A stretch of DNA of 64,000 nucleotides, taken from positions 969,289-1,033,288 of the forward strand of contig OY282446.1 in NCBI GenBank assembly GCA_958295975.1, given 5' to 3'. Under the pieces are notes generated by a model that was not told where the DNA came from, did no database searches, and worked only from the letters and a program-made list of their open reading frames with translations. Positions 8,667 through 64,000 of this stretch are shown one piece after another. A program made the position numbers and the translations under genes. The stretch comes from Tepidiformaceae bacterium. Lineage in GTDB: Bacteria; Chloroflexota; Dehalococcoidia; Tepidiformales; Tepidiformaceae. Within the stretch, counting starts at the first letter, position 1; each line of letters begins with the position of its first letter.

Positions 8667-8895
8667 TACCGCATGGCGAGGTAGTCGTCGCGGGAGAGGC
8701 CGATTTCGCGCAGGATGTCGAGGATGAGACGGGGATCAATCGTACGGCCGCGGTGATGGGGGACGGTCGTCGCGCGTCCTCCGGATGGCGATAGTAGACG
8801 TGGCTGCCCTTGCCGCGACCGGGAGTCACCGCGAACCCCAACTGGCGTAGGATGCGGTCGATCTCGCGGAAGGTGGCAGGGGGAATGCGGCTCAG
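8666..8895 (-). pseudogene. hicA: Decayed hicA toxin (frameshift, lost start codon)
   Basis: Clearly homologous to the intact hicA at 9276-9509: the frame with GRGKGSHVYYRHPEDA runs into a second frame with TTVPHHRGRTIDPRLILDI. One base is missing near 8780, between the codons for Asp-Ala and Thr-Thr. The position that is the GTG start in the intact copy reads CTG here (8895). The upstream antitoxin gene is intact. Toxin loss with antitoxin retention is the direction expected under selection. Confidence 0.8.
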
Positions 8896-9176
8896 GGAGA
8901 TTCACCGTTCACACGGCGATTTTCGAGCTGCTGCAGTCCCACGAAGCGCGGCAGCTCGTCCGCTTCGATCTCGCCCACCTCCACAAGCAGTTCCAGCACC
9001 TCGCGCAGGTTGTCGCGGAGCTCGTCGAGGGTCGCGGCTTGGGTGTGCGCGCCACGAATGCCCGGGATGATGCCGATGTAGTGCTGGCTCTCCTCGCCCC
9101 ATTCGACGTAGGCGGTGACGGTCAGCGTCCTGCGGTCGGGATGTTCGGCGGTGGCGGAGCGCTCGGCGACGGTCAT
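8892..9176 (-). CDS. hicB: HicB-family antitoxin, paired with decayed hicA
   Basis: 94 aa HicB-like protein. The first residues MTVAERS, the central HTQAATLDELRDNLREVLEL and the closing GLQQ are shared with the copy at 9506-9754, so the two arose by duplication of the cassette; the leader DNA before the ATG (9177-9215) is also duplicated. The strand-turn IPGIRGAHTQA is the HicB core. The stop overlaps the lost start of the decayed toxin. It may now act on the other HicA or be free of a partner. Confidence 0.85.
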   Translation of the reverse strand: MTVAERSATAEHPDRRTLTVTAYVEWGEESQHYIGIIPGIRGAHTQAATLDELRDNLREVLELLVEVGEIEADELPRFVGLQQLENRRVNGESP

Positions 9177-9275
9177 CGGAGTCTCCTCCCGGGACGCGCC
9201 AGTGGCGCATCGCCTCCAAGAGTGCCGTAACCTTCCTAACGGGCGGGCGGGCCATGCGCGCCACGCACGTTGGCG

Positions 9276-9509
9276 CTAGCGCCCGCGGCGCAGGCGCAGG
9301 TAGTCGTCGCGCGCGAGGCCGATGTCGCGCAGGATGTCCTGGAGAATCTCCGTACCGATCTGCTTGCCGCGATGGTCGGACAGGACCGTCGTGCGTCCGT
9401 CGGGGTGGCGGTAGACGACATGGCTGCCCTTGCCGCGACGGGACTCGAAGCCCAGGCGGCGGAGCAGGCGATCCAGCTCACGGAAGGAGGCGGGGGAGAG
9501 CCTGCTCAC
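9276..9509 (-). CDS. hicA: HicA-family mRNA interferase toxin
   Basis: 77 aa HicA. The helix FRELDRLLRRLGF is followed by RRGKGSHVVYRHPDGR with the catalytic His, then TTVLSDHRGKQIGTEIL and the last helix ILRDIGLARDDYL. The GTG start overlaps the stop of the upstream hicB by four bases (antitoxin first). All key residues are present, in contrast to the decayed paralogue 380 bases further on. Confidence 0.85.
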   Translation of the reverse strand: MSRLSPASFRELDRLLRRLGFESRRGKGSHVVYRHPDGRTTVLSDHRGKQIGTEILQDILRDIGLARDDYLRLRRGR

Positions 9510-9754
9510 ACGGCGACGGCCACCTGCTGGAGGCCGATGAAATCCGGAACCTCGTCCATCTCGATCAGGTCTTCTTCGGCAAGCAGTTCGAGCACCTCGC
9601 GCAGGTTGTCGCGGAGCTCGTCGAGGGTCGCGGCCTGCGTATGCGCGCCCGGGATGCCCGGGACCGTGCCGGCGAAGAGGCCGACGCTCTTGTCCCACCG
9701 GACGTAGGCGGTGAAGGTCACGTTCGCGCGGTCGGAGCGCTCGGCGACGGTCAT
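9506..9754 (-). CDS. hicB: HicB-family antitoxin
   Basis: 82 aa HicB, first gene of the minus-strand run. FTAYVRWDKSVGLFAGTVPG is the HicB strand-strand core, followed by the helix shared with the paralogue at 8892. The Shine-Dalgarno GGAGGAGACT precedes the ATG. The gene is directly upstream of intact hicA, so this is the functional cassette of the pair. Confidence 0.85.
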   Translation of the reverse strand: MTVAERSDRANVTFTAYVRWDKSVGLFAGTVPGIPGAHTQAATLDELRDNLREVLELLAEEDLIEMDEVPDFIGLQQVAVAV

Positions 9755-33191: not shown

Positions 33192-34486
33192 GGCGCGCCC
33201 TCCCCGGGCTCCGCCACGTACACGAAGTAGACGCCGCCCGGGACGAGCGCCGTGATCGTGTTCACGCCGAAGCCCGCCAGTTCGGGGAAGTAGCTGAGCC
33301 AGCGCTGCGCGCGCGCGTCCCAGGCGTAGATGGCGCGCACGCGCGCCTCGCCGATGGCGTCCGCCGCCGCCGTCTCCGCGCCGCGCCAGGCGATGAGGTC
33401 CCAGCCCGCCGCCGCCAGCCCCAGGTCCGCCAGCGTCTGCGTCGATTCCGGCGTCGGCGTAGGCGTGGGGATAGGCGTGGCGGTGGCGCTGGCGGGGATG
33501 CGGACGGTGTCCCCGATCTGCAGCCCCGTCGGGTCCAGCCCCGGGTTCAGCTCCATGATCGCGTTCACCGTCACGTCGTAGGCCACGGCCAAGCCCCACG
33601 GCGTGTCCCCCTCCACGATCGTGTGCCGCACCTCCGCCGTCCGCGTGGGGGTAGGCTCAGGCGTCGGCGTGGGGGTAGGAGTTGGCGTCGGCGTGGGCGT
33701 CGGGACAGGCGTGGGGGTGGCGGCGGCGCTGGCGGGGATACGGACGGTGTCCCCGATCTGCAGCCCCGTCGCGTCCAGCCCAGGGTTCAGCTCCATGATC
33801 GCGTTCACCGTCACGTCGTAGGCCACCGCCAAGCCCCACGGCGTGTCCCCCTCCACGATCGTGTGCCTCACCTCCGCCGTCCGCGTCGGCGTGGGCGTGG
33901 GCGTGGGCGTGGGCGTGGGCGTGGGGCTGGGCGTGGGGGTGGGCGTGGGCGTGGGCGTGGGGCTGGGCGTGGGGCTGGGCGTAGGGGTGGGCGTGGGGCT
34001 GGGCGTGGGCGTGGGGCTGGGCGTGGGCGTGGGCGTGGGCGTGGGCGTGGGCGTGGGGCTGGGCGTGGGCGTGGGCGTGGGCGTGGGCGTGGGCGTGGGC
34101 GTGGGCGTGGGCGTGGGCGTGGCGGGAGGGCCGGATGCGCTCAGGTCCAGCCGGATGAGGCGCCCGGCGGACCAGACGACCGTCTCCACCGCGGGCCTGC
34201 CGTTCACGGTGAAGGCCACGGCATCGCCCGAGCCGCAGCGCGGGACGTGGATGGTATAGCCGCCGGGCGAGCCCAGGCCCGTGAGCGTGGCGCGGGCGCA
34301 GACGACGCTGCCCATGCTCGCCGCCACCTCCGCGCCCGCGGGGGCCGCACGCCCGCCCAGCGTGGCCGTGCCCGCGAACCGCGCGGCTTCCCGCTGCTGC
34401 GCGCCCGCGACGAGCGTGAACGCCAGCCCCGCCAGCAGCGCCAGCCCCGCCAGCGCCGCGCCCATCCGCCCGTACGCGCCGCTCAT
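33188..34486 (-). CDS. Secreted LysM surface protein with Pro/Thr-rich stalk
   Basis: 432 aa. Order: signal peptide (~1-38); a beta domain with two Cys (GTATLGGRAAPAGAEV ... TIHVPRCGSGD) shared with the protein at 36306; a long Thr-Pro repeat stalk; LysM domain 1; a short stalk; an almost identical LysM domain 2 (VEGDTPWGLAVAYDVTV); and a C-terminal domain (~65 aa) shared with the surface proteins at 34598 and 37084. LysM modules bind peptidoglycan or related glycans. First gene of the otsAB transcript. TATGCT (34498-34503) may be the -10 box. Confidence 0.85.
   Translation of the reverse strand: MSGAYGRMGAALAGLALLAGLAFTLVAGAQQREAARFAGTATLGGRAAPAGAEVAASMGSVVCARATLTGLGSPGGYTIHVPRCGSGDAVAFTVNGRPAVETVVWSAGRLIRLDLSASGPPATPTPTPTPTPTPTPTPTPTPSPTPTPTPTPTPTPSPTPTPSPTPTPTPSPTPSPTPTPTPTPTPSPTPTPTPTPTPTPTRTAEVRHTIVEGDTPWGLAVAYDVTVNAIMELNPGLDATGLQIGDTVRIPASAAATPTPVPTPTPTPTPTPTPTPEPTPTRTAEVRHTIVEGDTPWGLAVAYDVTVNAIMELNPGLDPTGLQIGDTVRIPASATATPIPTPTPTPESTQTLADLGLAAAGWDLIAWRGAETAAADAIGEARVRAIYAWDARAQRWLSYFPELAGFGVNTITALVPGGVYFVYVAEPGEGAP
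33481..33890 (-). repeat. Duplicated LysM module
   Basis: 33481-33650 and 33721-33890 are about 170-base direct copies with 240-base spacing that differ at only a few positions, mostly silent. Recent duplication or gene conversion. Confidence 0.85.
33886..34122 (-). repeat. Low-complexity GTGGGC tract coding Thr-Pro repeats
   Basis: Near-perfect six-base repeats on the plus strand (GTGGGC with occasional GTGGGGCTGGGC), translated as (PT)n with sparse Ser on the minus strand. A second, shorter tract lies at ~33645-33720. Likely to vary in length. Confidence 0.9.
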
Positions 34487-47504: not shown

Positions 47505-48580
47505 GCGAGGCGATCGAGCGGCTGCGCGAGGCGCGCGAGGCGCTCATGCGACCCGGCGCGCCCCTGCGCGTCAACCTGCGCGACTACGTGCCGGAGGGTT
47601 CGGCGGCGTGGCGGGCGTTCGTGCGCGTCAGGAGCGAGTCCGCGCGCTCCACGCTCGTGCCCGGCTACAGCGTGCGGCGCGCGACGATCGTCGGCTGGCT
47701 CGACGACGTGATCGCCCAGTTGGAGGCGGAGCGCGACGCCGGGGAGACGCCCGCGGATGAGCCCGTGGAAGCGCCTTCGCCGCGCGATCTGCCCCGCACG
47801 GGCGAACGCTCGTCGCGGATGGAGCCTTCCGCGGGATCGCCCTCCCCGAGGGGGACGCCGCTGCGACGGCTGACGGCGGCGGGCATCGCGGAGGCGCAGG
47901 CGTTCCTCGCGCGCCTGCGCGAGCACCCCGACGCGGACCGCACGCCGCCCGACGACCTGCTCTTCGGCGACCGCTACAGCCGCCCGTTCGACGCGGGCGC
48001 GGGCATCACGGTGGAGCCGCGCGCGTTCGGGACGCGGCGCGAGGCGGGGGCGTATCTGTCGCCGCTGCTCGAGTCGGTGCGGCACCGCGTCGCGGACGAC
48101 GCAGGCGTGTGGTCGTGGCTTGGCATGTTCTACTTCACGGATACCGTCCGCGTGAGGGATGGGCGCGCGCAGTTGCACACCGACGAGGCAAGCCTTTTTC
48201 TGGGAGAGAGGGCTGCTCAACGTCGCTATCGGCACTACCTTTGGATGGCTTGGCGGATTTACGAACAGCATGGCGAGAAAGTGTCCTTTCTCCTCGACCA
48301 GCCTCTGACCGCGAGGGGGGACTTGCTGGAAGCTGTCGGTGGATATGCCCGCATCTTCAACTCCGCAGGGGTCGTTCCACTGGCCCTGCGCCTCTATACC
48401 CACAGCGGCAAACTGAAGCGCGGCTTTAGTGCGAAGAAGGGGCAGCCTGGCAATATTCGCCGCCTGCCTGCTGTGCTGGAGCAGCTGGCGTTGACCTACG
48501 ACGTGTATGGCATGGCGCCGGACGCGCTGCTGGATGTGCTGCCCGACGACTTCCGCCGCTGGGACGCGAGGACGGCGTGA
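47501..48580 (+). CDS. Unknown protein C of the GHKL operon (paralogue of D)
   Basis: 359 aa, GTG overlapping the stop of B. The N-terminus (AIERLREAREALM ... VNLRDYVPEGSAAWRAFVR) and the C-terminal ~240 residues are shared with the next protein: SPLLESVRHRVADDAGVWSW, RRYRHYLWMAWRIYEQHGEK and LTYDVYGMAPDALLDVLPDDF. The centre includes a Pro/Ser/Arg linker. It might belong to a DUF6339-like group, a guess from memory. The 3' third (~48130-48510) has far lower GC3 than the 5' part and than gene D, suggesting recombination. Confidence 0.65.
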   Translation: MSEAIERLREAREALMRPGAPLRVNLRDYVPEGSAAWRAFVRVRSESARSTLVPGYSVRRATIVGWLDDVIAQLEAERDAGETPADEPVEAPSPRDLPRTGERSSRMEPSAGSPSPRGTPLRRLTAAGIAEAQAFLARLREHPDADRTPPDDLLFGDRYSRPFDAGAGITVEPRAFGTRREAGAYLSPLLESVRHRVADDAGVWSWLGMFYFTDTVRVRDGRAQLHTDEASLFLGERAAQRRYRHYLWMAWRIYEQHGEKVSFLLDQPLTARGDLLEAVGGYARIFNSAGVVPLALRLYTHSGKLKRGFSAKKGQPGNIRRLPAVLEQLALTYDVYGMAPDALLDVLPDDFRRWDARTA

Positions 48581-49995
48581 GCGAGGCGGTCTGGCGGCTG
48601 CGCGAGGCGCTCGACGCGCTCACGCGGCCCGACGCGCCCGCGACGGTCAACCTGCGCGACTACGTGCCGGAGGGATCGGCGGCGTGGCGGGCGTTCGTGC
48701 GTGAATGGCCAGCCGATGCGGGTTCTGGTCCGCCGGAGGGCTCGGCGGCATGGCGGGCGTTCGTGCGGGCGTGGCGCGTGCCCGGCGACGACGTGGAGCG
48801 CGCGACGATGGTCGGCTGGGTCGAGGCGGTGATCGCGCGGCTGGAGGCGGAGACCGATGCCCGGGAGAAGCCCGCGGGTGAATCCGCCAGGGAGAGCGAA
48901 GCGCCTTCGCCGCGCGATCTGCCCCGCACGGGGGAGCGCTCGTCGCGGATGGAAGGGGCCGTGTTCAGCCTCGAGACGGACGATGTCGCGCGGACGCTGG
49001 CCGAGCGCTCCGTGGCGGACGCGGACGCGGGGCCAGCGGCGGACTGGCCCGTCTCCGCGCGGGTTCCCGCGCAACAGATGGACGACTGGTACTACGGGCC
49101 GGAGTACGACGAGGAGGCGCGGCAGGAGCGCGCCAGCCTCTCGGCGGCGCAGTGGGAGGAGCGGTTGCGCTGGCAGGCGGAGCACGGCGGCGATCCCGCG
49201 CGGGACACGCCGACGCCGTCGGCGCGCGGGCGGGCGGGGACTCCGCTGCGGCGGCTGACGGCGGAGGGCATCGTGGAGGCGCGGGCGTTCCTGATGCGCC
49301 TGCGCGAAGAGCCCGACGCGGACCGCGAGCCGCCGCGCGCGCTGCTGTTCGGCGACCGGCGCTACAGCCGCCCCTACAGCGAGGAAGTGCGCGTCGAGCG
49401 GCGGGGCTTCCGCACGCGGCGCGAGGCGGGGGAGTATCTGTCGCCGTTGCTCGCGCCCGTGCGCCACCACATCACGGATGACGCGGGCGTGTGGTCGTGG
49501 CTCGGCATGTTCTACTTCCCCGAGATCGTGCGCGTGAAGGATGGCCGGGTGCTGCTCCATGCCGATACGACGTCGCTCTTCCTGGGCGAACGGTCGGCGC
49601 AGCGGCGCTACCGCCACTACCTCTGGTCGGCCTGGCGGCTCTACGAGCAGCACGGCGAGAGCGTGGGCTACGTCCTCGACCAGCCGGTGACGGACTCCGG
49701 CGACATCGCCAAGGCGGTGCTCGACTACCCCCGCGTGTTCACCTCGGCGGGCGTGATCCAGCTCATCCTCCAGCTGTATACGGACGGCGAGCGGACGAAG
49801 CGCGGGTTCAGCGTGCGGGCGCGGCAGGGCGTTTCCACCAGGCCCCGGCCCGGCACCGTGTGGCACCTGATCGAGCGCGCCTTGCCGCAGCTGGAGCTGA
49901 CCTACGACGTGTACGGCATGGCGCCGGACGCGCTGCTGAAGGTGCTGCCGGACGATTTCCGCGCGTGGGAGCGCGCGGACGCGATGGGGGCGTAG
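48577..49995 (+). CDS. Unknown protein D of the GHKL operon (paralogue of C)
   Basis: 472 aa, GTG overlapping the stop of C. Same plan as C but with a longer middle (~130-225, charged) and an internal repeat: PEGSAAWRAFVREWP is followed closely by PEGSAAWRAFVRAWR. The C-terminal domain contains YLSPLLAPVRHHITDDAG, RYRHYLWSAWRLYEQHGES and VYGMAPDALLKVLPDDF. All codons have the local GC bias. Two related proteins in one operon suggest a heteromeric partner pair for the ATPase; inference. Confidence 0.65.
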   Translation: MSEAVWRLREALDALTRPDAPATVNLRDYVPEGSAAWRAFVREWPADAGSGPPEGSAAWRAFVRAWRVPGDDVERATMVGWVEAVIARLEAETDAREKPAGESARESEAPSPRDLPRTGERSSRMEGAVFSLETDDVARTLAERSVADADAGPAADWPVSARVPAQQMDDWYYGPEYDEEARQERASLSAAQWEERLRWQAEHGGDPARDTPTPSARGRAGTPLRRLTAEGIVEARAFLMRLREEPDADREPPRALLFGDRRYSRPYSEEVRVERRGFRTRREAGEYLSPLLAPVRHHITDDAGVWSWLGMFYFPEIVRVKDGRVLLHADTTSLFLGERSAQRRYRHYLWSAWRLYEQHGESVGYVLDQPVTDSGDIAKAVLDYPRVFTSAGVIQLILQLYTDGERTKRGFSVRARQGVSTRPRPGTVWHLIERALPQLELTYDVYGMAPDALLKVLPDDFRAWERADAMGA

Positions 49996-52203: not shown

Positions 52204-52983
52204 ATGAGCGCCACGTCGAGCATTGAGTGGACGCAGGCGACCTGGAACCCGGTGACGGGTTGCACGAAGGTCAGCCCCGGCTGCGCCCACTGCTACGCGG
52301 AGACGTTCGCCAACCGCTTCCGTGGCGTGCCCGGCCATCCCTACGAGCGGGGCTTCGAGCTCCAGCTGCGTCCCGAGCGGCTGGAGTTGCCGCTGGACTG
52401 GAAGAAGCCGCGCATGATCTTCGTGAACAGCATGAGCGACCTCTTCCACGAGGGCGTGGACGACGATTTCATCGCGCGCGCGTTCGCGACGATGGAGCGC
52501 GCGCACTGGCACACCTTCCAGGTGCTGACGAAGCGCCCCGAACGGGCGCTGGCGCTGGCGGGCGGGCTGCCCTGGCCGGACAACGTGTGGCTGGGCGTGT
52601 CCGTGGAGAACCGCCGCTTCCTGCACCGGCTGGACGCGCTGCGCGGGATTCCCGCCGCGCTGCGCTTCGCCTCCTGCGAGCCGCTGCTGGGGCCGCTGGC
52701 CGGGATCGACCTGACGGGCATCGGCTGGGTCATCTGCGGGGGCGAGTCGGGGCCGCGGGCGCGGCGCATGGAGCCGGAGTGGGCGCGCGCGCTGCGGGGT
52801 GCCTGCGAGGCTGCGTCGGTGCCGTTCTTCTTCAAGCAGTGGGGGGCGCACGACGCGGATGGGCGTCGCGTGGGCAAGGGGCGCGCGGGCCGCGAGTTCG
52901 ACGGCCAGCGCTGGGACGGGATGCCGGGGGCGATTCAGAACGCGGGGAACGTGACCCGCGTATCCGTACCCGTGCCCCAGTAG
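52204..52983 (+). CDS. DUF5131 phage Gp37/Gp68-like three-Cys-motif protein
   Basis: 259 aa. The N-terminal TWNPVTGCTKVSPGCAHCYAE holds the C-x6-C-x2-C three-Cys motif that gave the family its name; it is shortened here to GCTKVSPGCAHC. KPRMIFVNSMSDLFHE, WLGVSVENRRF, LRFASCEPLLGPL and GGESGPRARRM are also family hallmarks. The Cys arrangement hints at an iron-sulfur or radical-SAM-like fold. Relatives occur in phages and mobile islands. It converges on, and overlaps, the gene for its usual partner TcmP. Confidence 0.88.
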   Translation: MSATSSIEWTQATWNPVTGCTKVSPGCAHCYAETFANRFRGVPGHPYERGFELQLRPERLELPLDWKKPRMIFVNSMSDLFHEGVDDDFIARAFATMERAHWHTFQVLTKRPERALALAGGLPWPDNVWLGVSVENRRFLHRLDALRGIPAALRFASCEPLLGPLAGIDLTGIGWVICGGESGPRARRMEPEWARALRGACEAASVPFFFKQWGAHDADGRRVGKGRAGREFDGQRWDGMPGAIQNAGNVTRVSVPVPQ

Positions 52984-54050
52984 GTCTTCTTCATCTTTTT
53001 TTCAGGAGGGCGCTCGACCATCACCAACCCCTCCCTCTCAGCATCGCGCAGCACTTTCTTCCCGTGCGTCTCGCGGAACGCGGTCTCGATCAAGACAAAG
53101 TTGTCAATCTCACCGATGGGAACATCCGCACGTCCAGCAAAGTGACGCAGCATCAGGCTGCGCAACTGGGCGTAGTTCGGCTCGACTCCAAACAGCGTGG
53201 CCTGTCCCCGACTCGGCGCGGTGAAGTCCGAGAAGGTGACGCCGCCTGCCTGATCGACTTTCCACATGGCATCCTTCATGACTCGCAGCCCCTCCGGGCT
53301 GTGGGTGGCGAAGGCGAGGAAGTACTCCGTCCGGTTCCTCGCATCCCTCATCTCGAACAGGCGGACATATTTCATGCCGATGCCCTCGAGCTGACGAGCG
53401 TAGAGGTCGCTGAGGAACTTCTTCTTGTCCTGAGCAGCAAGCCCCGCCGCATCCCTCCACTTCCGTGTGCCGAAGAGATCGTCGAGGGGCGACTCGAACG
53501 AGGGGTGCTCAAGGAACCGGCTGATCGGTTCGTACATGAGGGAAACGAGCAGCTCGGTCTTGGGGAAGTCGGCCAAGCGACGCAGCAGGTCGAGCGGCAG
53601 GCCCTTCACGCCGAAGGGATCGACCATGACGAAGGACGGCCTCGACGGCCTCAGGCCAAAGTTCCTAACCTTTTCAAGACCGCCGAACACTTCGTCGATA
53701 TGCTCCTCAAAAGTTCCCTGTCGAACCATCACCTCGGCGTTCGGCGGATGCTGGCGACTATCGACCGTGGTCTTGAGCATCTCGAAGTGCGCCTGGTCCT
53801 CTTCGATAAACAGGAACTTGAACCGGCAGCCCTTCATATTCGGCAAATGCTTGTGCTGGGCGAGAACGTCGAGCGCGATGATGGGCGAGCCGGGCTCGCC
53901 GTCGGCGTACGTGCCCGGCCCGGCGAAGCCATCGACGAAGACGATGAGGCCTCGCGTGCTCGCCAGCTTCGGGTAGTACGCCTGGAGGTAGCGGCGCAGG
54001 ATCTCGTGCTTGGCGACGGTGTGCGGTTGGATCTTCCAGGTAGCAGTCAT
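52935..54050 (-). CDS. Three-Cys-motif partner protein TcmP
   Basis: 371 aa. IVFVDGFAGPGTY and FVMVDPFGVKGLPL are the characteristic motifs of TcmP, a methyltransferase-like protein almost always encoded beside a three-Cys-motif protein. A C-terminal helical part may be a winged helix. The coding sequence is clearly lower in GC than the surroundings, a sign of transfer. The 3' end overlaps the 3' end of the DUF5131 gene by 49 bases on the opposite strand; in most genomes the pair is reported in the same direction. Confidence 0.85.
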   Translation of the reverse strand: MTATWKIQPHTVAKHEILRRYLQAYYPKLASTRGLIVFVDGFAGPGTYADGEPGSPIIALDVLAQHKHLPNMKGCRFKFLFIEEDQAHFEMLKTTVDSRQHPPNAEVMVRQGTFEEHIDEVFGGLEKVRNFGLRPSRPSFVMVDPFGVKGLPLDLLRRLADFPKTELLVSLMYEPISRFLEHPSFESPLDDLFGTRKWRDAAGLAAQDKKKFLSDLYARQLEGIGMKYVRLFEMRDARNRTEYFLAFATHSPEGLRVMKDAMWKVDQAGGVTFSDFTAPSRGQATLFGVEPNYAQLRSLMLRHFAGRADVPIGEIDNFVLIETAFRETHGKKVLRDAEREGLVMVERPPEKKMKKTYWGTGTDTRVTFPAF

Positions 54051-54211: not shown

Positions 54212-54570
54212 ATGAGCTTCTACGACACCTGGGCCGCCATCCTCATCGCCTCCATCGCCGGCTTCATCCTCGTCTTCACGGCGCTGGTGGGGGCGCGCCT
54301 GCTCGGGCCCTTCGCGCGCGAGCGGGGCAAGGGCGTCTCCTACGAGTGCGGGATGCTGCCCACGGGGCGCAACTGGTCCCAGGTGCACGTGCGCTACTAC
54401 CTGTTCGCCATCATGTTCCTCATCTTCGACGTGGAGACGATCTTCATCTTCCCCTGGGCGGTGACCTTCCTCGACCTGCCGGGCTTCGTGTTCTGGTACA
54501 TGTTCGTGTTCATCACGGTGCTGGGCGCGGGGCTGCTCTACGCCTGGCGGCGGGGCGTGCTGGAGTGGCG

Positions 54571-54574
<4 letters not shown>
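54212..54574 (+). CDS. nuoA: Complex I subunit NuoA
   Basis: 120 aa, three membrane helices, with YECGMLPTG and [15 protein letters not shown] as family signatures. The Cys in the first loop is kept. Start ATG after AGCAGGGGC. First gene of the operon; a 161-base gap before it has TAGCGT at 54127 but no clear promoter. Confidence 0.96.
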
Positions 54575-55136
<562 letters not shown>

Positions 55137-55140
<4 letters not shown>

Positions 55141-55646
55141 GCGCCGCATCTGAGGTGCCGGCCATCGCCGCGCTCGTGCGGGAGCGGCTGCCGGAGGTTC
55201 CCTTCACGGCCTCGGAGACGAAGACGTACGCCGACCTGCGCGTCGCGCCCGCGCGCCTGCTGGAGCTGATGACGGGGCTGCGCGACGACCCCGACCTGGC
55301 CTTCGACCTGCTGCGCAACGTGGTGGCGCTGGACATGGAGGAGGAGGGGCTGGCGGCGCGCTACCAGCTCTACTCCTTCCGCCACAGCCACGCCCTGCAG
55401 GTGAGCGTGGCCGCGCCCCTCGCCGCGCCCGTGCTGCCCACGCTCACGGGGCTGTGGCCGACGGCGGACTGGCACGAGCGGGAGGCGGCGGAGATGGTGG
55501 GGCTGGTGTTCTCGGGGCACCCCGATCCGCGCAACCTGCTGCTGGAGGAGGACCTGCGCATCCATCCCCTGCGCAAGGCGCACCCGCTGCAGCAGGCCGA
55601 AATCCTGCAGGGCATCGAGGACGGCCCGCCCGGGGTGGACCGCTAG
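55137..55646 (+). CDS. nuoC: Complex I subunit NuoC
   Basis: 169 aa 30-kDa-type subunit of the peripheral arm. The motif [25 protein letters not shown], here abbreviated by WHEREAAEM and [12 protein letters not shown], is diagnostic. The ATG overlaps the nuoB stop. Separate from nuoD, not fused. Confidence 0.95.
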
Positions 55647-56789
55647 ATGGCGATCTGGCCGGAGGAGCGGACGGCCGCCGCGGGCGACCTCGACACGGTC
55701 GACATGACCGTGAACGTGGGCCCGCAGCACCCGGCCACGCACGGCGTGTTCCGCATGGTGCTGACGGTGGACGGCGAGCGCGTGGTGGGCTGCGAGCCCT
55801 ACATCGGCTACCTGCACCGCGGGCTGGAGAAGCTGACGGAGAACGCCGACTACCGCCAGGCCATGGGCTGGTGGGACCGCACGGACTACCTCGCGGGCAT
55901 GTGCTGCGAGGGGGCCTACGTGATGGCCGTGGAGCGGCTGGCGGGCATCGAGGCCCCGGAGCGGGCGGAGTACATCCGCGCCCTCATGATGGAGCTGTCG
56001 CGCATCAACTCCCACTTCATGTTCCTGGGGGCCTTCGGCGCGGACGTGGGCTCCTTCGGCACGAGCTTCACCTACGCCTGGCGCGAGCGCGAGCGCATCT
56101 ACGACCTCTTCGAGGAGGTGGCCGGGGACCGCATGTTCCCCACCTACTTCCGCATCGGCGGCGTGACCATGGACCTGCCCGCCAACTTCGAGCGGCGCTG
56201 CCGCGAGGTGCTGGCCTCCATCCGCCAGGGGCTGGAGGACCTGGACGGGCTGCTCACGGGCAACGAGGTGTTCGTGGAGCGCTGCCGCGGGCTCACGCCG
56301 GTGACGCCCGAATGGGCCATCGCGCGGGGCGTCACCGGCCCCATGCTGCGCGCCACGGGCCTCGCCTGGGACATCCGCAAGGCCGAGCCCTACGGCGTCT
56401 ACCCGAAGCTCGATTTCGACATCCCCACGGGACGGCAGGGCGACGTGTTCGACCGCTTCCACGTGCGCCTGGCGGAGTGCTACCAGAGCGCGCGCATGGT
56501 GGAGCAGTGCCTCGAGGCCATGCCCGGCGGGCGCGTGCTCGCCCCCAAACTGCCCAAGACGCTGCGCATCAACGAAGGCGAACTCTACTTCCCCACGGAG
56601 GGCACGAAGGGCGAGTACGGCGTCTACCTGATGGCGCGCGGCGGGACGCAACCCTACCGCGCCAAGCTGCGCTCGCCCTCCTTCTGCAACCTCTCGGCCC
56701 TGCGGGAGCTGGTGGTGGGGACCTACGTGGCCGACGCCATCGTCATCCTCGGCTCGCTCGACATCGTGCTGGGCGAGGTGGACAAGTGA
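55647..56789 (+). CDS. nuoD: Complex I subunit NuoD
   Basis: 380 aa 49-kDa subunit that forms the quinone pocket with NuoB. NVGPQHPATHGVFR carries the quinone-binding His; YLHRGLEKL and ELSRINSHFMFLG are typical; LPKTLRINEGELYFPTEG near the end. The ATG directly follows the nuoC stop. Confidence 0.97.
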   Translation: MAIWPEERTAAAGDLDTVDMTVNVGPQHPATHGVFRMVLTVDGERVVGCEPYIGYLHRGLEKLTENADYRQAMGWWDRTDYLAGMCCEGAYVMAVERLAGIEAPERAEYIRALMMELSRINSHFMFLGAFGADVGSFGTSFTYAWRERERIYDLFEEVAGDRMFPTYFRIGGVTMDLPANFERRCREVLASIRQGLEDLDGLLTGNEVFVERCRGLTPVTPEWAIARGVTGPMLRATGLAWDIRKAEPYGVYPKLDFDIPTGRQGDVFDRFHVRLAECYQSARMVEQCLEAMPGGRVLAPKLPKTLRINEGELYFPTEGTKGEYGVYLMARGGTQPYRAKLRSPSFCNLSALRELVVGTYVADAIVILGSLDIVLGEVDK

Positions 56790-57916
56790 CCTTCGGCGAG
56801 GCCTTCTTCGGCATGAGCTGGCTGGACGCGATCATCCGCATCGTGATCGTGGTGCTGCTGATGACGGTGGTGGTGGTCTACCTGACCTACGGGGAGCGCA
56901 AGGTGATCGCGCGCTTCCAGATGCGGCTGGGGCCGACGCGCACGGGCCCGGCGGGGCTGCTGCAGGGCGTGGCCGACGCGCTCAAGCTGCTCTGCAAGGA
57001 GGACGTGCGCCCGCGCAACGCCGACCGCTGGGTGTTCGAGTTCGCGCCCTACCTGACCTTCATCCCCGTCTTCCTCGTGCTGGCGGCGCTGCCCTTCGCG
57101 CGCGACTGGGGCGTTCGCAACCTAGCGCTGGGCATGTTCTTCGTGTTCGCCGTGCTGGGGCTCAACATCGTGGGCGTGCTCATGGCCGGGCTGGGCTCGG
57201 GGAACAAGTACGCCCTGCTCGGCGGCGTGCGCGCGGCGGCGCAGATGATCAGCTACGAGATTCCGCTGGTGGTGGCCCTGCTGGCGGTGGCCATGCTGGC
57301 GGGCACGCTCGACCTGAACGCCATCGCGGCCATGCAGGAGTCGCGCCCCTTCGTGCTCGTGCAGCCCCTCGCCTTCGTCATCTTCCTGACCGCCGTGCTC
57401 TCCGAGCTGCACCGCGCGCCCTTCGACATCCCCGTGGCCGAATCGGAGATCGTGGGCGGCTACTTCGTGGAGTATTCGGGCATTCGCTGGAGCATGTTCC
57501 AGCTGGCCGAATACGCCGCCCTCTGGGCCTTCAGCATCTTCGGCGCGGTCGTCTTCCTCGGCGGCTGGCAGTTCCCCTTCGGCGACGACTGGGGCTGGTG
57601 GTGGCAGCTCATCCTCACGCTGGTCAAGAGCCTGCTCCTGATCCTGCTCATCTTCTGGGTGCGGGCCACGCTGCCGCGCCTGCGCATGGACCAGCTCATG
57701 AGCTTCTGCTGGAAGGCGCTCATCGAGGTGAGCTTCGCCCTGCTGCTGGTGAACGGCCTCTTCCTCTACTTCGGCTGGTCGGAGATCATCCTCGCGGTGG
57801 TGAACTGGGCGGGGGCCGCCGCCTTCCTCGGGGCCATCTACCTGCGCGCCATCCGCAAGCCCGCCGTCGAGAACCTCGTCGGCGCCTACAAACACGCGGG
57901 GGTTTCGCCGCCATGA
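56786..57916 (+). CDS. nuoH: Complex I subunit NuoH
   Basis: 376 aa membrane subunit at the quinone entry. YGERKVIARFQMRLGPTRTGP, here by its core ERKVIARFQMRLGP, and SELHRAPFDIPVAESEIVGG are signatures; eight helices. The GTG start overlaps the nuoD stop. Confidence 0.96.
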   Translation: MTFGEAFFGMSWLDAIIRIVIVVLLMTVVVVYLTYGERKVIARFQMRLGPTRTGPAGLLQGVADALKLLCKEDVRPRNADRWVFEFAPYLTFIPVFLVLAALPFARDWGVRNLALGMFFVFAVLGLNIVGVLMAGLGSGNKYALLGGVRAAAQMISYEIPLVVALLAVAMLAGTLDLNAIAAMQESRPFVLVQPLAFVIFLTAVLSELHRAPFDIPVAESEIVGGYFVEYSGIRWSMFQLAEYAALWAFSIFGAVVFLGGWQFPFGDDWGWWWQLILTLVKSLLLILLIFWVRATLPRLRMDQLMSFCWKALIEVSFALLLVNGLFLYFGWSEIILAVVNWAGAAAFLGAIYLRAIRKPAVENLVGAYKHAGVSPP

Positions 57917-59193
57917 TCGGCATTCTCAAGGGGCTGGCCACCACCTTCTCCACCTTCACGCGGCGGCCCGTCACCATCCAGTACCCGACGGAGAAGCACG
58001 AGCTGCCGGAGCGGCAGCGCAGCTTCCCCGTGCTCACGTGGGACTTCGACCACGACGAGCCCTTCTGCACGGGCTGCAACATCTGCGTGCGCAACTGCCC
58101 GGTGGACTGCATGACGGCGGTCATGCACGACAACCCGAAGTACGCCGAGGGCACGAGCGAGCGGCGCAAGATCGCCGAGAAGTTCTGGATCGACTACGCG
58201 CGCTGCATGCGCTGCAACATCTGCATCGAGGTCTGCCCCTTCGAGGCCATCGCCATGGACAACACGTGGGCCGGGCACGAACACTCGACCTACGACCGGC
58301 GCGACCTGCACAAGGACATCGAGGACCTGCTGGCGGCGAGCAAGCGCGGGGAGCTGGCCAACCCCTTCCGCCCGCTGGACAGCATCGAGGCGAACGCGGC
58401 GCTGGCGGAGGGCGGGGAGGCGCCCGCGCCGGGCTTCGCCGCGGCCCGCCCCGAGGCCCGCGCCGCCCAGGACGAGCGCATCGCCCAGGGGCTGGGCGCG
58501 GCCATCCAGGAACGCGAGCCGGAGGTCCGCCAGGAGGCCGCCGGAGCCGCCGCCGCCCTCAGCGCGGAGGACGAGGAGGCCGCCGCGCTCACGCCGCGCA
58601 AGCTGCGCGCGCGCCGCATGAAGGCCGAGCGCGAGGCCCGCGCCGAACGGGAGGCGGGCGAGGTGAGCGCGGAGGCGATCGCCGCCCTGCGCCGCTACGG
58701 CAGCGAGCTCTACACCGAGATCACGGGCGAGCCCGTGCCCGCCCCCGGCTCGCCGCCGCCCGCGCCCGCCGCGGGAGCCACCCCCGCCGCCGCGCCCGCG
58801 GGCGACGCGGGCGATCCCAACTCGCCGCGCAAGGTGCGCGCCCGCCGCATGAAGGCCGAACGCGCCGCCCGCGAGCACATCGCCCGGGGCGAGGAGACGC
58901 CCGCGGACGTCCTGCAGGCGCTGAACGACACGGAGAGCGCCCTCTACAAGGAGATCACGGGGAACGATCCCGCGCCCGCGGGGGCCGCCGCTCCCGCCGT
59001 CGCGCCCGCGGCGCCCGCCGCCGGGGGGCAGGGCGACCCCAACTCGCCGCGCAAGCTGCGTGCGCGCCGCATGAAGGCCGAACGCACGGCGCGCGAGCAT
59101 CTGGCGCGGGGCGAGGCCGTGCCCGCCGAGCTCGCGGCCTCCATCGCCGAGCTGGGCGGGGCCGTGCCCGGGGCGGGGGAGGGCGGCGCGTGA
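57913..59193 (+). CDS. nuoI: Complex I subunit NuoI with long three-repeat C-terminal extension
   Basis: 426 aa, where ~150-180 is usual. Residues 1-~150 are normal NuoI: cluster ligands Cys52/55/58/62 and Cys98/101/104/108. The extension is Ala/Pro/Glu-rich and holds three copies of a basic block, starting near residues 227, 304 and 378: PRKLRARRMKAER, PRKVRARRMKAER, PRKLRARRMKAER, each followed by a helix and, in the first two, by a LY(T/K)EITG end. Frames and codon use are continuous, with no stop or shift, so the extension is real. The start overlaps nuoH and the stop overlaps nuoJ. A docking role for an electron donor or an assembly function is inference. Confidence 0.95.
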   Translation: MIGILKGLATTFSTFTRRPVTIQYPTEKHELPERQRSFPVLTWDFDHDEPFCTGCNICVRNCPVDCMTAVMHDNPKYAEGTSERRKIAEKFWIDYARCMRCNICIEVCPFEAIAMDNTWAGHEHSTYDRRDLHKDIEDLLAASKRGELANPFRPLDSIEANAALAEGGEAPAPGFAAARPEARAAQDERIAQGLGAAIQEREPEVRQEAAGAAAALSAEDEEAAALTPRKLRARRMKAEREARAEREAGEVSAEAIAALRRYGSELYTEITGEPVPAPGSPPPAPAAGATPAAAPAGDAGDPNSPRKVRARRMKAERAAREHIARGEETPADVLQALNDTESALYKEITGNDPAPAGAAAPAVAPAAPAAGGQGDPNSPRKLRARRMKAERTAREHLARGEAVPAELAASIAELGGAVPGAGEGGA

Positions 59194-59693
59194 TCACGGA
59201 GGTCCTCTGGTGGATCGTGGCCGCGGGCGTGGTGGGGGCCTCGGCGGGCGTGGTGCTCTCGCGCTCGGTGGTGCACGCCGCCATCTTCCTCATCCTTAGC
59301 CTCGCGGGGGTGGGGGCCATCTACCTCTTCCTCACGGTCGAGTTCATCGCCCTCGTGCAGTTCCTCATCTACGGCGGCGCGGTGACGGTGCTGATCCTGC
59401 TGGCGCTGATGCTCACGCGCATGGGCGCGTCGGGGCGGCCCGAGCCGCTGACGGGGGCGCAGGCCCCCTTCGGCGCGCTGGTGGCGGCGGCGCTCATGGC
59501 CACACTCATCGGCGTGGCCGTGGCCACGGCCTGGCCGGGGGACCTGGGGGGCTCGCCCACGGCCATCTCCATCGAGCGCATCGGGGCGGCCCTCTTCCAG
59601 AACTACGGCGCGCCCTTCATCATCATGGCGGCGCTGCTGCTGGTGGCCTTCGTGGGCGCGATCGTGATCGCGAGGCAGGAGGACGGCGACTAG
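59190..59693 (+). CDS. nuoJ: Complex I subunit NuoJ
   Basis: 167 aa, five membrane helices. VVHAAIFLILSLAGVGAIYL and FLIYGGAVTVLILLALML carry the pi-bulge region and conserved Tyr/Gly. GTG start overlapping the nuoI stop. Confidence 0.95.
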   Translation: MITEVLWWIVAAGVVGASAGVVLSRSVVHAAIFLILSLAGVGAIYLFLTVEFIALVQFLIYGGAVTVLILLALMLTRMGASGRPEPLTGAQAPFGALVAAALMATLIGVAVATAWPGDLGGSPTAISIERIGAALFQNYGAPFIIMAALLLVAFVGAIVIARQEDGD

Positions 59694-60001
59694 TGGTCCC
59701 GCTGGAGAACTACCTCGTCCTCAGCGCCATCCTCTTCGCGCTCGGCGTCTACGGCGTGCTCTCGCGGCGCAACGCCGTGCTGGTGCTGATGAGCGTGGAA
59801 CTGATGCTGAACGCGGTGAGCCTCAATTTCGTGGCCTTCGCCGCGCACCTCGATCCGGACCGCGCCACGGGCATCGTCTTCGCCGTGTTCGTGATCGCGG
59901 TGGCGGCGGCGGAGGTGGGGCTGGCGCTGGCCATCGTCATCCGCCTCTTCCGCAACCGCTCCAGCGCCAACGTGGACGAGGCGGCCACGCTGCGATGGTG
60001 A
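59693..60001 (+). CDS. nuoK: Complex I subunit NuoK
   Basis: 102 aa, three helices with the conserved Glu in MSVELMLNAVSLNFV. Proton-channel subunit. GTG overlaps the nuoJ stop by one base. Confidence 0.96.
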   Translation: MVPLENYLVLSAILFALGVYGVLSRRNAVLVLMSVELMLNAVSLNFVAFAAHLDPDRATGIVFAVFVIAVAAAEVGLALAIVIRLFRNRSSANVDEAATLRW

Positions 60002-60013
60002 GGGAGGGGCCGC

Positions 60014-61903
60014 GTGGCTGAGCACGCCTGGATCCTGGCCGCCGTCCCCGCCATCGCCTTCCTCGCGCTGGCCGCCCTCGGACGCCGCCTGCCGCGCCAG
60101 GGCGATTTCCTGGCGGTGCTGGCCGCGGCCTCCGGCTTCGGCCTCTTCTTCGCCGTGCTGGCCAGCTTCCTGGGGCGGGGCGAGGGCGCCTGGCCCGTGC
60201 TCAACGCCATCGAGTGGACGGCCATCGGCGACTTCCGCCTGAACATGGGCATCGCCGTCGACCAGATCACGATCGTCATGCTGGCCGTCGTCACCACCGT
60301 CGCCTTCATGGTCAACGTCTTCTCCGTGGGCTACATGAAGGGCGAGCCGCGCTACTGGTGGTACTTCGCCGTGCTCCAGCTGTTCGTGGCCTCGATGCTG
60401 CTGCTGGTGCTGGCCGACAACCTGCTGCTGCTCTACGTGGCCTGGGAGCTGGTGGGGCTGAGCTCGTTCCTGCTCATCGGGCACTACTGGGAGCGGCGTT
60501 CGGCGGTGGAGGCGGCGAAGAAGGCGTTCATCACCACGCGCGTGGGCGACGTGGGCCTGCTCATCGGCATCATCCTGCTGTGGAAGGCCACGGGCACCTT
60601 CAACATCCTCGACATCATCCACGCCGTGGAGGCGGGCGAGGTGGGCGGCACGGGCCTCTTCGTGAGCGTCATGTTCATCTTCCTCGGGGCCATGGGGAAG
60701 AGCGCGCAGCTGCCCTTCCACGTGTGGCTGCCGGACGCCATGGAGGGCCCCACGCCGGTGAGCGCCCTCATCCACGCGGCCACCATGGTGGTGGCGGGCG
60801 TCTACCTCGTGGCGCGCCTGCTGCCCGTCTTCGAGGCCGCCGGCGACGCGCTCCTCGTGGTCACCGCCGTGGGCCTGATCACGGCCCTCTTCAGCGGCGT
60901 GGTGGCCTTCGCGCAGACGGACATCAAGAAGGTGCTGGCCTACTCCACCGTGAGCCAGCTGGGGTTCATGTTCGTGGCCCTGGGGGCGGGCGTGGTGAGC
61001 GCGGGCATGTTCCACCTGTTCACGCACGCCTTCTTCAAGGCGCTGCTCTTCCTCGGCGCGGGCTCCGTCATCCTCGGCGCGCACCACCGCCAGGAGGTGG
61101 GCCAGCTGGGCGGGCTCTGGCGCCGCATGCCGGTGACCGCCGCCGCCTTCCTCGTGGGCTCGCTGGCGCTGGCCGGGCTCTTCCCCCTGGCCGGGTTCTG
61201 GAGCAAGGACGAGATCCTGCACGCCGTGGAGGGCCACCGCGGGGCGCTCGTCTTCGCGCTCATCTCGCTGGCCTCGATCATGACCGCCTTCTACACGACG
61301 CGGCTCTTCATCCTCACCTTCCTCGGCAAGCCGCGGGACGCGGAGGCGGGCCACGCGCGCGAGACGGGCGCGAGCATGACGGGGCCGCTCGTCTTCCTCG
61401 CCGTGCTCTCCGTGTTCGCGGGCTTCGTCGTCTACGGCGGCGTGGGCGAGGCCCTCGGCTTCCCCGGCGGCTTCGGCGAATTCGTCTACCTGCATCACCC
61501 CGAGACCTTCCACATCGACTGGGGCCTGGCGGGCGTCTCCACCGCCCTCTTCGTGATCGGCGTGTTCGGCGCGGGCTGGCTCTACCGGGGCGGGCGGCTG
61601 GACCGCGCCGCCGCGCTGACGGCCTGGCAGCCGAAGCTGTACGAGATGACGCGGCGCAAGTTCTACTTCGACGACCTCTACCAGTTCCTCATCGACCGCG
61701 TGGTGCTGGGCTTCAGCTACGTGGTGAGCTGGTTCGACCGCTTCGCCGTGAACGACACGGGCGTGGACGGCTCGGCCACGCTCACGGGCTACGCGGGCTT
61801 CCTGCTGAAGCACCTGCAGACGGGGCGCGTGCCGAACTACGCGCTGGCCATCGCGGCGGGCGTGGCCGCGCTCATCCTGGTCGCGCTGGCGGCGGGGGGC
61901 TAG
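60014..61903 (+). CDS. nuoL: Complex I subunit NuoL
   Basis: 629 aa antiporter-like proton pump. YVAWELVGLSSFLLIGHYW holds the key Glu; LPDAMEGPTPVSALIHAATMV and the broken helix Lys region are intact; the long amphipathic helix at the C-terminus is present. GTG after GGGAGGGGCC, 12 bases from nuoK. Confidence 0.96.
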   Translation: MAEHAWILAAVPAIAFLALAALGRRLPRQGDFLAVLAAASGFGLFFAVLASFLGRGEGAWPVLNAIEWTAIGDFRLNMGIAVDQITIVMLAVVTTVAFMVNVFSVGYMKGEPRYWWYFAVLQLFVASMLLLVLADNLLLLYVAWELVGLSSFLLIGHYWERRSAVEAAKKAFITTRVGDVGLLIGIILLWKATGTFNILDIIHAVEAGEVGGTGLFVSVMFIFLGAMGKSAQLPFHVWLPDAMEGPTPVSALIHAATMVVAGVYLVARLLPVFEAAGDALLVVTAVGLITALFSGVVAFAQTDIKKVLAYSTVSQLGFMFVALGAGVVSAGMFHLFTHAFFKALLFLGAGSVILGAHHRQEVGQLGGLWRRMPVTAAAFLVGSLALAGLFPLAGFWSKDEILHAVEGHRGALVFALISLASIMTAFYTTRLFILTFLGKPRDAEAGHARETGASMTGPLVFLAVLSVFAGFVVYGGVGEALGFPGGFGEFVYLHHPETFHIDWGLAGVSTALFVIGVFGAGWLYRGGRLDRAAALTAWQPKLYEMTRRKFYFDDLYQFLIDRVVLGFSYVVSWFDRFAVNDTGVDGSATLTGYAGFLLKHLQTGRVPNYALAIAAGVAALILVALAAGG

Positions 61904-61906
61904 GGC

Positions 61907-63412
61907 ATGGCGGAGACGGACGCGCAGGGCTACGTGCTGCTGACGGCGCTGGCCCTGCCGCTGCTGGCGGCGGCGGCGCTGCTGGCCATGCCCGGCGATC
62001 GGCCCATGGCGGCGCGGCGCCTGTCGGCGGTGACGGGGGCGGTGCTGCTGGGCCTCTCCATCTACGTGTTCCTCGCCTACCGCGCGGGCGGCGAGGTGCT
62101 GCAGATGCAGCTGCGCTGGCCCTGGATCGAGCACGTGGGCTTCCTCGGCGAGAACGGCATCGCCCTGCGCCTGGGGGTGGACGGCATCTCCGCCCTGCTC
62201 ACGCTGCTCACGGGCGTGGTGGCCTTCGCGGGCACGCTCGTCGCCTGGAAGCTGGAGTACCGCGCGCGGGACTTCTTCATCCTCTTCTGGGTGCTGATCG
62301 CGGGCGTCTACGGCACCTTCTTCTCGCTCGACCTCTTCTTCTTCTTCTTCTTCTACGAACTGGCGGTGGTGCCGCTCTACCTGCTCATCGGCATCTGGGG
62401 CTCGACGCGCAAGGAGTACGGCGCGATGAAGCTGACGCTGATGCTGGTGGGCGGCTCGGTGGGCATCTGGATCGGCATCTTCGCGGTGGTGCACGAAGCG
62501 GGGCTGGGCACCTTCGACCTGCCCGCGCTGTGGGAGGCGGGCCGCAGCGGGGCCCTGAGCCCCGATTTCCAGAAGGCCATCTTCCCCTTCTTCGCCGTGG
62601 GCTGCGGCGTGCTGGCGGGCCTCTGGCCGCTGCACACATGGTCGCCCGACGGCCACATGTCGGCGCCCACCTCGGTGTCGATGGTGCACGCGGGCGTGCT
62701 CATGAAGCTGGGGGCCTTCGGCATCATCCGCCTGGGCATCCAGATCCTGCCGGAGGGGGCCGCCTTCTGGATGCCGGCGCTGCTGGTGCTGGGCACGATC
62801 GGGGCGCTCTACGGGGCCATCGCGGCGCTCACGCAGCGGGACTTCAAGCTGATCAGCGGCTACAGCTCGGTGAGCCACATGGGCTACGTGCTCATCGGGC
62901 TGGCCACGCTCAACGAGATCGGCGTGAGCGGGGCGGCCCTGCAGATGTTCAGCCACGGCGTCATGACGGCCCTCGTCTTCCTCCTCATCGGGGCGCTCTA
63001 CGACCAGGCGCACACGCGCGACCTGCGCGACTTCGGGGGCGTGGCGCGGGTGATGCCCCTGTGGGTGGTGGCCTACGTGGTGGCGGGCCTCGCCAACGTG
63101 GGCCTGCCCGGCCTCTCCGGCTTCACCGCCGAATTCCACATCTTCGTGGGCACCTTCCGCACCTATCCCATCTTCGGCGGGCTGGCCATCCTCGCCGCCG
63201 CCATCGCCGCCGCCTACATGCTGCGCATGTTCGCCACCGTCTTCTTCGGGCCGCTCAACCCGCGCTGGCGCGAGCTGCGCGACCTCTCGCCCATCGAGAT
63301 CGCGGCGGCGGTCCTGCTCATCGCCTCCATGCTGGTCATGGGGCTCTGGTGGGCGCCCTTCACTGACCGCCTCGCGCAGACGGTGCTGAGCCTGCCGGGG
63401 GTGACGGGCTGA
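61907..63412 (+). CDS. nuoM: Complex I subunit NuoM
   Basis: 501 aa antiporter-like subunit. FFFYELAVVPLYLLIGIWG carries the essential Glu; LHTWSPDGHMSAPTSVSMV and SHMGYVLIGL are typical. The ATG is four bases after the nuoL stop. Confidence 0.96.
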   Translation: MAETDAQGYVLLTALALPLLAAAALLAMPGDRPMAARRLSAVTGAVLLGLSIYVFLAYRAGGEVLQMQLRWPWIEHVGFLGENGIALRLGVDGISALLTLLTGVVAFAGTLVAWKLEYRARDFFILFWVLIAGVYGTFFSLDLFFFFFFYELAVVPLYLLIGIWGSTRKEYGAMKLTLMLVGGSVGIWIGIFAVVHEAGLGTFDLPALWEAGRSGALSPDFQKAIFPFFAVGCGVLAGLWPLHTWSPDGHMSAPTSVSMVHAGVLMKLGAFGIIRLGIQILPEGAAFWMPALLVLGTIGALYGAIAALTQRDFKLISGYSSVSHMGYVLIGLATLNEIGVSGAALQMFSHGVMTALVFLLIGALYDQAHTRDLRDFGGVARVMPLWVVAYVVAGLANVGLPGLSGFTAEFHIFVGTFRTYPIFGGLAILAAAIAAAYMLRMFATVFFGPLNPRWRELRDLSPIEIAAAVLLIASMLVMGLWWAPFTDRLAQTVLSLPGVTG

Positions 63413-64000
63413 TGCGCGACTTCACGCTCTTCATCCCGGAGTACATCGCCGCGGGCGCGGCCATCGGCGTGCTGGCGCTGGAGCTGGCCCTGCCCCGCCT
63501 GCGCCGGGACGCGCTGGCCTGGGCCACGGCGGCGGGGGCGGCGGCCTGGCTGATCGCGGCCCTGTTCTACGTCGGCGACGCGCCCGGGGACTTCGAGGGG
63601 CTGCTGCGCACGGACGCCTTCACCGCCTACTTCCGCATCCTCGCCGCGGGCGCCGTGCTGGCCGTCGCCCTCCTCTCCGCCCGCTACCTGCGCGACCGCA
63701 CGCGCGCCGCCGGGGAGTACTACGGCCTGCTGCTGATGGCGGGCGCGGGCATGACCCTGCTGTCCGCCGCGCGCGAGCTGCTCACGGCCTACGTGGCGCT
63801 GGAGCTGCTGAGCTTCTCCCTCTACGTGCTCGTGGGCTACCTGAAGCGCGACGCGCGCTCCAACGAGGCCAGCCTCAAGTACATCCTGCTGGGGGCCTTC
63901 TCCAGCGCCATGCTGCTCTACGGCATCAGCCTGCTCTACGGGCTGACGGGCAGCACCACCTACGCGGGCGTGGCCGAGGGGCTGGCGGCGCGCGGCGAGG
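63412..64000 (+). CDS. nuoN: Complex I subunit NuoN, cut by window end
   Basis: First 196 codons of the third antiporter-like subunit. YVALELLSFSLYVLVGYLKRD is the NuoN segment with the conserved Glu; EASLKYILLGAFSSAMLLYG follows. The ATG overlaps the nuoM stop. No frameshift in the visible part. Confidence 0.95.
   Translation, partial: MRDFTLFIPEYIAAGAAIGVLALELALPRLRRDALAWATAAGAAAWLIAALFYVGDAPGDFEGLLRTDAFTAYFRILAAGAVLAVALLSARYLRDRTRAAGEYYGLLLMAGAGMTLLSAARELLTAYVALELLSFSLYVLVGYLKRDARSNEASLKYILLGAFSSAMLLYGISLLYGLTGSTTYAGVAEGLAARGE

Follow-up and report, generated by a model that had tools for sequence, protein, structure and literature searches.

Complex I operon and the nuoI gene

The window (the whole stretch of 64,000 nucleotides analyzed here) carries a complex I operon on the plus strand at positions 54212 to 64000, in the order nuoA-B-C-D-H-I-J-K-L-M-N, with nuoN continuing beyond the window. 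Its gene content (A, B, C, D, and H to N) is that of an 11-subunit complex I, and nuoE, nuoF, and nuoG are absent from the operon. In complex I without the NADH module, electrons enter at the distal [4Fe-4S] clusters of NuoI. Just upstream of the operon (52204–54050), a gene for a DUF5131 protein on the plus strand adjoins one for the three-Cys-motif partner protein TcmP on the minus strand. Elsewhere in the window, two adjacent ORFs at 47546–49995 share the sequence VNLRDYVPEGSAAWRAFVR without a Pfam match and look like a tandem duplication; ORFs with long VG dipeptide runs lie opposite an Ala/His/Pro-rich ORF in a low-complexity repeat tract (33603–34259); and two similar small HicB/UPF0150-like ORFs with near-identical ends are found on the minus strand at 8892–9754.

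The nuoI gene (57913–59193, plus strand) encodes a protein of 426 aa (45.4 kDa, pI 5.5) without internal stop. Its ATG overlaps the stop codon of nuoH, and its TGA stop is overlapped by the GTG start of nuoJ (GTGA), the latter both in the window and in several relatives. The protein consists of a two-cluster ferredoxin domain (aa 1–145, 57913–58347), in which both clusters (CTGCNICVRNCP and CMRCNICIEVCP, CxxCxxCxxxCP type) were found, and a tail of 281 aa. TIGR01971 matched residues 7–139 with E = 6e-26 and 90 bits, which is under the curated cut-off of 113 bits. The PDB matches of the core were NdhI/NuoI, and the gene sits where the NuoI/23-kDa (TYKY) subunit is expected in a complex I operon, with nuoH before it and nuoJ after it. 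A single open frame through the tail is kept in every complete family member. A frame or assembly artefact as the source of the tail was ruled out by its conservation in 35 genomes and by the overlapping start and stop codons. An antisense ORF of 404 aa (57886–59100) was taken as a GC-rich shadow of nuoI.

The genes missing from the operon have counterparts elsewhere in the genome. The genes for NuoE and a NuoF-like protein are located at C1 685–688 kb (L098:7669–10040), those for a NuoG-like protein and a second, short NuoI (NuoI2) at C1 1832–1835 kb (L067:6559–9486); the NuoI2-NuoG pairing also occurs in a sister family (L108). Judged from this gene content, a 14-subunit assembly may be formed. 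The genome further encodes one 2-oxoacid oxidoreductase homologue (POR_N) and two ferredoxin-like proteins, of 95 aa (net charge -17, near C1 507.5 kb) and 171 aa (net charge -9). F420-dependent electron input was considered and rejected, there being no match to the FpoF-type FrhB/FdhB_C family (PF04432) in the genome.

Architecture of the NuoI tail

The first-pass annotation had described an in-frame extension of more than 250 residues after the two-cluster domain, with three repeats of PRK-x-RARRMKAER about 75 residues apart that share a helix, an EITG end (twice), and Ala/Pro linkers. All of this stood up. The motif PRK(L/V)RARRMKAER is present in all three units and starts near aa 228, 305, and 379, the spacing of the core motif being 77 and 74 aa. 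The units are about 40–50 aa each, and the DNA of the three copies matches at 64–73% over 157 nt.

All parts of the tail are given here on the plus strand. The core is followed by a core-to-repeat region (aa 146–206, 58348–58530) with the family-wide conserved pattern ARPEAR..RIAQG..AIQEREPE, and by linker 0 (aa 207–223, 58531–58581). Repeat unit R1 (aa 224–274, 58582–58734) has predicted helices at 228–248, 253–261, and 266–271, and is joined by the Ala/Pro-rich linker 1 (aa 275–299, 58735–58809) to unit R2 (aa 300–351, 58810–58965; predicted helices 305–324, 331–339, and 343–349). The second Ala/Pro-rich linker (aa 352–373, 58966–59031) leads to unit R3 (aa 374–412, 59032–59148; predicted helices 379–398 and 405–413). 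EITG closes R1 and R2 and is absent from R3.

Each unit opens with a predicted basic helix, with net charges of +5 in R1 (58594–58656), +6 in R2 (58825–58884), and +6 in R3 (59047–59106). The positive charge is confined to these helices; the whole 281-aa tail is acidic (net charge -7, pI 5.2). The term 'basic arm' used in the first-pass annotation thus applies to the first helix of each unit and not to the tail as a whole.

Predicted structure of the repeat unit

AlphaFold2 with a family alignment gave pLDDT values of about 66–92 for the units and below 50 for the linkers, including residues 279–300 of the linker 1 region and 357–374 of the linker 2 region. The NuoI core was poorly modelled in this whole-protein prediction (pLDDT ∼26–46, shallow alignment), and no docking geometry was taken from the model. 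R2 modelled alone from 49 unit sequences reached a pLDDT of 93.7 and a pTM of 0.75, with helices at 7–26, 33–41, and 45–51 of the unit. The repeat unit is therefore predicted to be a small helical module, and the linkers are predicted to be disordered. The first-pass reading holds for the basic helices on Ala/Pro linkers, but not for bare basic stretches, each unit being such a predicted module.

We compared the unit with known families and folds. No Pfam or NCBIfam family was found for NuoI residues 130–426, and the 27 repeat units gave only chance-level matches to family models. A Foldseek search of the R2 model against the PDB returned nothing at E ≤ 0.001, an absence that does not make the fold new, and the top VIA Z score of 4.6 is the level expected of common helical arrangements. 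Profile searches of the PDB also picked up adenylate kinases, P450s, and TRMT10 (E = 1.5e-4), which were discarded because all they have in common with the repeat is an inter-helix GE-x-(I/V)-P turn. For a tail so rich in Ala, simple k-mer shuffling has little power, and nothing here rests on it. The module is absent from Pfam and NCBIfam, i.e., uncatalogued in the libraries searched, and the searches did not reveal an already described domain of unrelated function. Our literature search, in which coverage of subscription journals was poor, found no paper describing a NuoI repeat tail.

The basic helix has a mean hydrophobicity of about -0.7 and a hydrophobic moment of 0.30, a moment that 42% of shuffled sequences reach. 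It is not an amphipathic helix of the membrane-inserting type, which disfavors membrane binding by insertion as a role for the arm.

Distribution of the repeat

The repeat could be followed with a profile, as had been proposed, and the matches that could be placed all lay in NuoI. The profile was built from 27 units. In the window's own genome it gave three matches, all of them the NuoI units (E-values from 2.5e-15 to 1.3e-23), with the next best hit not below E = 0.27. Among 393 Dehalococcoidia genomes, the repeat was present in 35 of the 38 genomes of the window's own family (f1) and in none of the 355 genomes outside it. The family f1 is probably Tepidiformaceae or a relative, and Tepidiforma a likely cultured relative. 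Two of the three f1 genomes without a match (G010 and G015) are uninformative, in that NuoI itself gave only weak ferredoxin matches there; the third is G349. Where the assembly breaks off in a short contig end, some repeat matches could not be linked to the ferredoxin part. No loss of the tail was seen in f1 genomes where NuoI is assembled, and the K-x-R-A-R-R-M-R-A-E-R motif is kept in 18 genera of the family.

A wider scan for RA[RK]RM[RK]AE[RK] over 84,980 species genomes picked up 124 stretches, and 20 loci were confirmed; the records are mostly Dehalococcoidia or Chloroflexi MAGs. The motif was in frame with a NuoI ferredoxin domain at 19 of the 20 loci, and the remaining one was a fragment at a contig end, from a genome already counted among the 19. 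Strong matches in a phylum sample of 400 genomes were likewise found in f1 only, and the other matches were weak (short stretches, E ∼1e-4). It is well supported by these searches that the repeat is restricted, among the genomes searched, to the NuoI of one family.

One contig labelled 'Holophagae' (L086, isolate FeB_10) has a nuo operon of the Dehalococcoidia type, with a NuoI nearly identical to that of L087. It was not accepted as evidence of transfer: its NuoI is 90%-plus like that of the Dehalococcoidia-type L087, and the bin is likely mislabelled.

Selection and origin

Pairwise Nei-Gojobori estimates among four genus members gave dN/dS values of 0.05 for the core, 0.07–0.13 for the three units, and 0.15–0.33 for the linkers (∼0.33 for linker 0 and ∼0.32 for linker 1); the core-to-repeat region was at ∼0.10. 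Indels among the same four members were found in linkers only, linkers 1 and 2 included, and none in units. That the repeat units are under purifying selection while the linkers drift is well supported.

Complete NuoI proteins of relatives hold three or four units, and the identity of adjacent units reaches 100% (L018), evidence of recent unit duplication in relatives. In a FastTree phylogeny of 111 NuoI cores, f1 formed one clade (support 0.97) nested in short-tailed NuoI. In the sister families, the nuoABCDHIJKLMN operon is syntenic and encodes a tail-less NuoI of 154–179 aa. The position of the clade and the short NuoI of the nearest relatives with the same operon show that the tail was gained once.

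Possible function of the tail

The best-fitting reading of the tail is a flexible, multivalent arm at the point of electron entry, to which a soluble electron-input protein would dock. We favor it tentatively, as a little short of probable, and name a partner only as a candidate. The tail would begin where electrons enter the complex, and the basic helix of each module would bind an acidic surface of the soluble protein weakly and reversibly. Several modules together could then raise the local donor concentration beside the N6 clusters. Candidate partners are the 95-aa ferredoxin (net charge -17) and the separately encoded NuoEF or NuoG-NuoI2 proteins, between which we cannot separate. That the tail begins near the electron-entry site, and hence may form such an arm, is suggested by the binding of ferredoxin on NdhI in NDH-1L (PMC7021789), by the contacts of E. 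coli NuoI (PMC8357420), and by the docking platform proposed for 11-subunit complex I, the electron donor of which is an open question (PMC11238625).

We counted in favor of a docking arm the selected modules, their basic first helices, the drifting linkers, the unit duplications, the restriction of the repeat to NuoI of one family, the EFG-less operon, the long NuoI tails of two other clades, and the encoded ferredoxin candidates and POR_N homologue. The negative net charge of the tail counts against it, and of the acidic-donor docking first proposed we retain the multivalent arm on a complex I without NADH module but not the notion of an arm that is basic overall. The ferredoxin with a charge of -17 is itself weak evidence for docking, since acidic ferredoxins are common. 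Many sister lineages have the same EFG-less operon with a tail-less NuoI; electron input can thus do without the tail. As a conserved arm specific to one family, attached to the subunit with the entry clusters, the tail would be useful as bait, and a pull-down with it could reveal the donor directly.

Alternatively, the tail could wrap the peripheral arm as an intramolecular clamp, its modules stabilizing NuoI against NuoB, NuoD, NuoC, or an extra subunit without catching a mobile donor. Residues 139–180 of E. coli NuoI hold arm subunits together (PMC8357420), the C-terminal helix of A. vinelandii RnfC contacts RnfB and RnfH (PMC12174285), and aa 146–206 of the window's protein are well conserved, as would suit a clamp. 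Such a clamp, however, would not need units that vary in number and are joined by drifting linkers rich in indels. The modules are also predicted to be separate from each other, and sister complexes are encoded without a tail. We consider a clamp unlikely, though it deserves to be kept in mind.

A scaffold for a metabolon or condensate, in which the tail would cluster upstream enzymes or many complexes by multivalent weak binding and not act at electron entry alone, seems decidedly improbable to us. Repeated motifs on flexible linkers do resemble the logic of CsoS2 and EPYC1 (PMC10614612), but a membrane subunit of low copy number would offer three to four valences, and it has no known partner. 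Anchoring to anionic lipids, by which the basic helices would keep complex I close to the headgroups or cluster several complexes within the membrane, could draw on the Arg/Lys clusters on the helices. It is very unlikely given their low hydrophobicity and ordinary moment, and complex I is already an integral membrane complex.

Nearly neutral expansion of the repeat, by GC-rich tandem duplication tolerated at the free NuoI C-terminus, would account for the drifting linkers. Long NuoI tails arose several times, and the genomes are GC-rich. The lower dN/dS of the units compared with the linkers, the indel-free units of the four genus members, and the retention of the motif across 18 genera with no loss where NuoI is assembled leave this explanation with little credit. 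Least of all do we credit contact with nucleic acid or the ribosome, e.g., RNA binding during co-translational assembly: the helices are Arg-rich and weakly resemble ribosomal S15 and an EPRS motif (Z 2.5–3.1, within the chance range for small helical folds), but there is no sequence match to RNA-binding domain families, the flanking modules range from neutral to acidic, and a NuoI-specific functional reason is lacking.

Other long NuoI tails in Chloroflexota

The family f1 is not alone in having a long NuoI tail. NuoI of another Dehalococcoidia family (f7/f61; L105, L139, L140, L142, and L151) carries two to three copies of DPRVAxARxKAAELRAQRAAERGE. It resembles the window's NuoI in its repeated basic helix, Ala/Pro/Glu-rich linkers, C-terminal position, and EFG-less operon, but it forms a separate clade in the core tree and its repeat has no detectable relation to that of f1. 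Several families outside the class have Ala/Pro-rich NuoI tails of 150–210 aa with short end motifs, some of them duplicated, e.g., two LxPAE(K/R)AALYKARQRxAGI or two KGIPWKGKAAxxGGS (L185, L186, L187, L196, L198, and L199). These two long-tail groups are separate clades in the core tree, with support of 0.99 (one short-tailed intruder) and 0.985.

Every long-tailed NuoI with readable flanks has nuoD directly before nuoH, i.e., no nuoEFG between them, an association that spans few independent clades and includes some loci assigned by flank evidence alone. In the few operons where nuoI has no adjacent nuoD, NuoI has mostly 42–59 residues after the second cluster, and 103 in one. Short-tailed NuoI is also common in EFG-less operons, so the absence of nuoEFG is not sufficient for a long tail. 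The recurrence of unrelated long NuoI tails in such operons suggests a general solution. It is possible, though on balance doubtful, that multivalent tethers recruiting soluble electron donors have evolved repeatedly at the C-terminus of NuoI in complex I without NADH module, independently in at least three Chloroflexota clades and from unrelated modules; the window's tail would then be a new small helical domain family serving this role.

Comparison with known systems

The Rubisco linkers CsoS2 and EPYC1 carry repeated short motifs in a flexible chain and bind weakly and multivalently (PMC10614612). They share this design with the NuoI tail, but they are stand-alone Rubisco scaffolds and the likeness is one of analogy only. 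A partial parallel is RnfC/RsxC: the C-terminus of E. coli RsxC has six VDPRKAAVEAAIARAKARK-type repeats, and, as in the window's NuoI, basic Ala-rich helical repeats in more than one copy follow a two-[4Fe-4S] domain in a membrane redox pump. RnfC of A. vinelandii has a long C-terminal helix that contacts RnfB and RnfH and whose function is not known (PMC12174285). RnfC/RsxC is, however, another subunit of another complex, and no homology was detected among the f1, f7, and RsxC repeats, the profile scores being within the range of composition-shuffled sequences.

The E. coli NuoI extension (residues 139–180) contacts NuoG, NuoB, NuoF, NuoD, and NuoE and stabilizes the arm (PMC8357420). Like the window's tail, it is C-terminal on the same subunit; it lies at the end of the peripheral arm where electrons enter and contacts electron-input subunits, as the window's tail would in the reading favored here. 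It comprises 42 ordered residues, mostly without secondary structure and without repeats, in a complex with the NADH module, whereas the window's tail has 281 residues with repeated, predicted helical modules in an operon without nuoEFG. Cyanobacterial and chloroplast NDH-1 resembles the complex encoded by the window's operon in having 11 core subunits and no NADH module, and the top PDB matches of the NuoI core include NdhI. In NDH-1L, ferredoxin docks electrostatically on NdhI at a highly positive pocket (PMC7021789); the positive charge there is located on the surfaces of NdhI, NdhH, NdhV, and NdhO, and not on a repeat tail.
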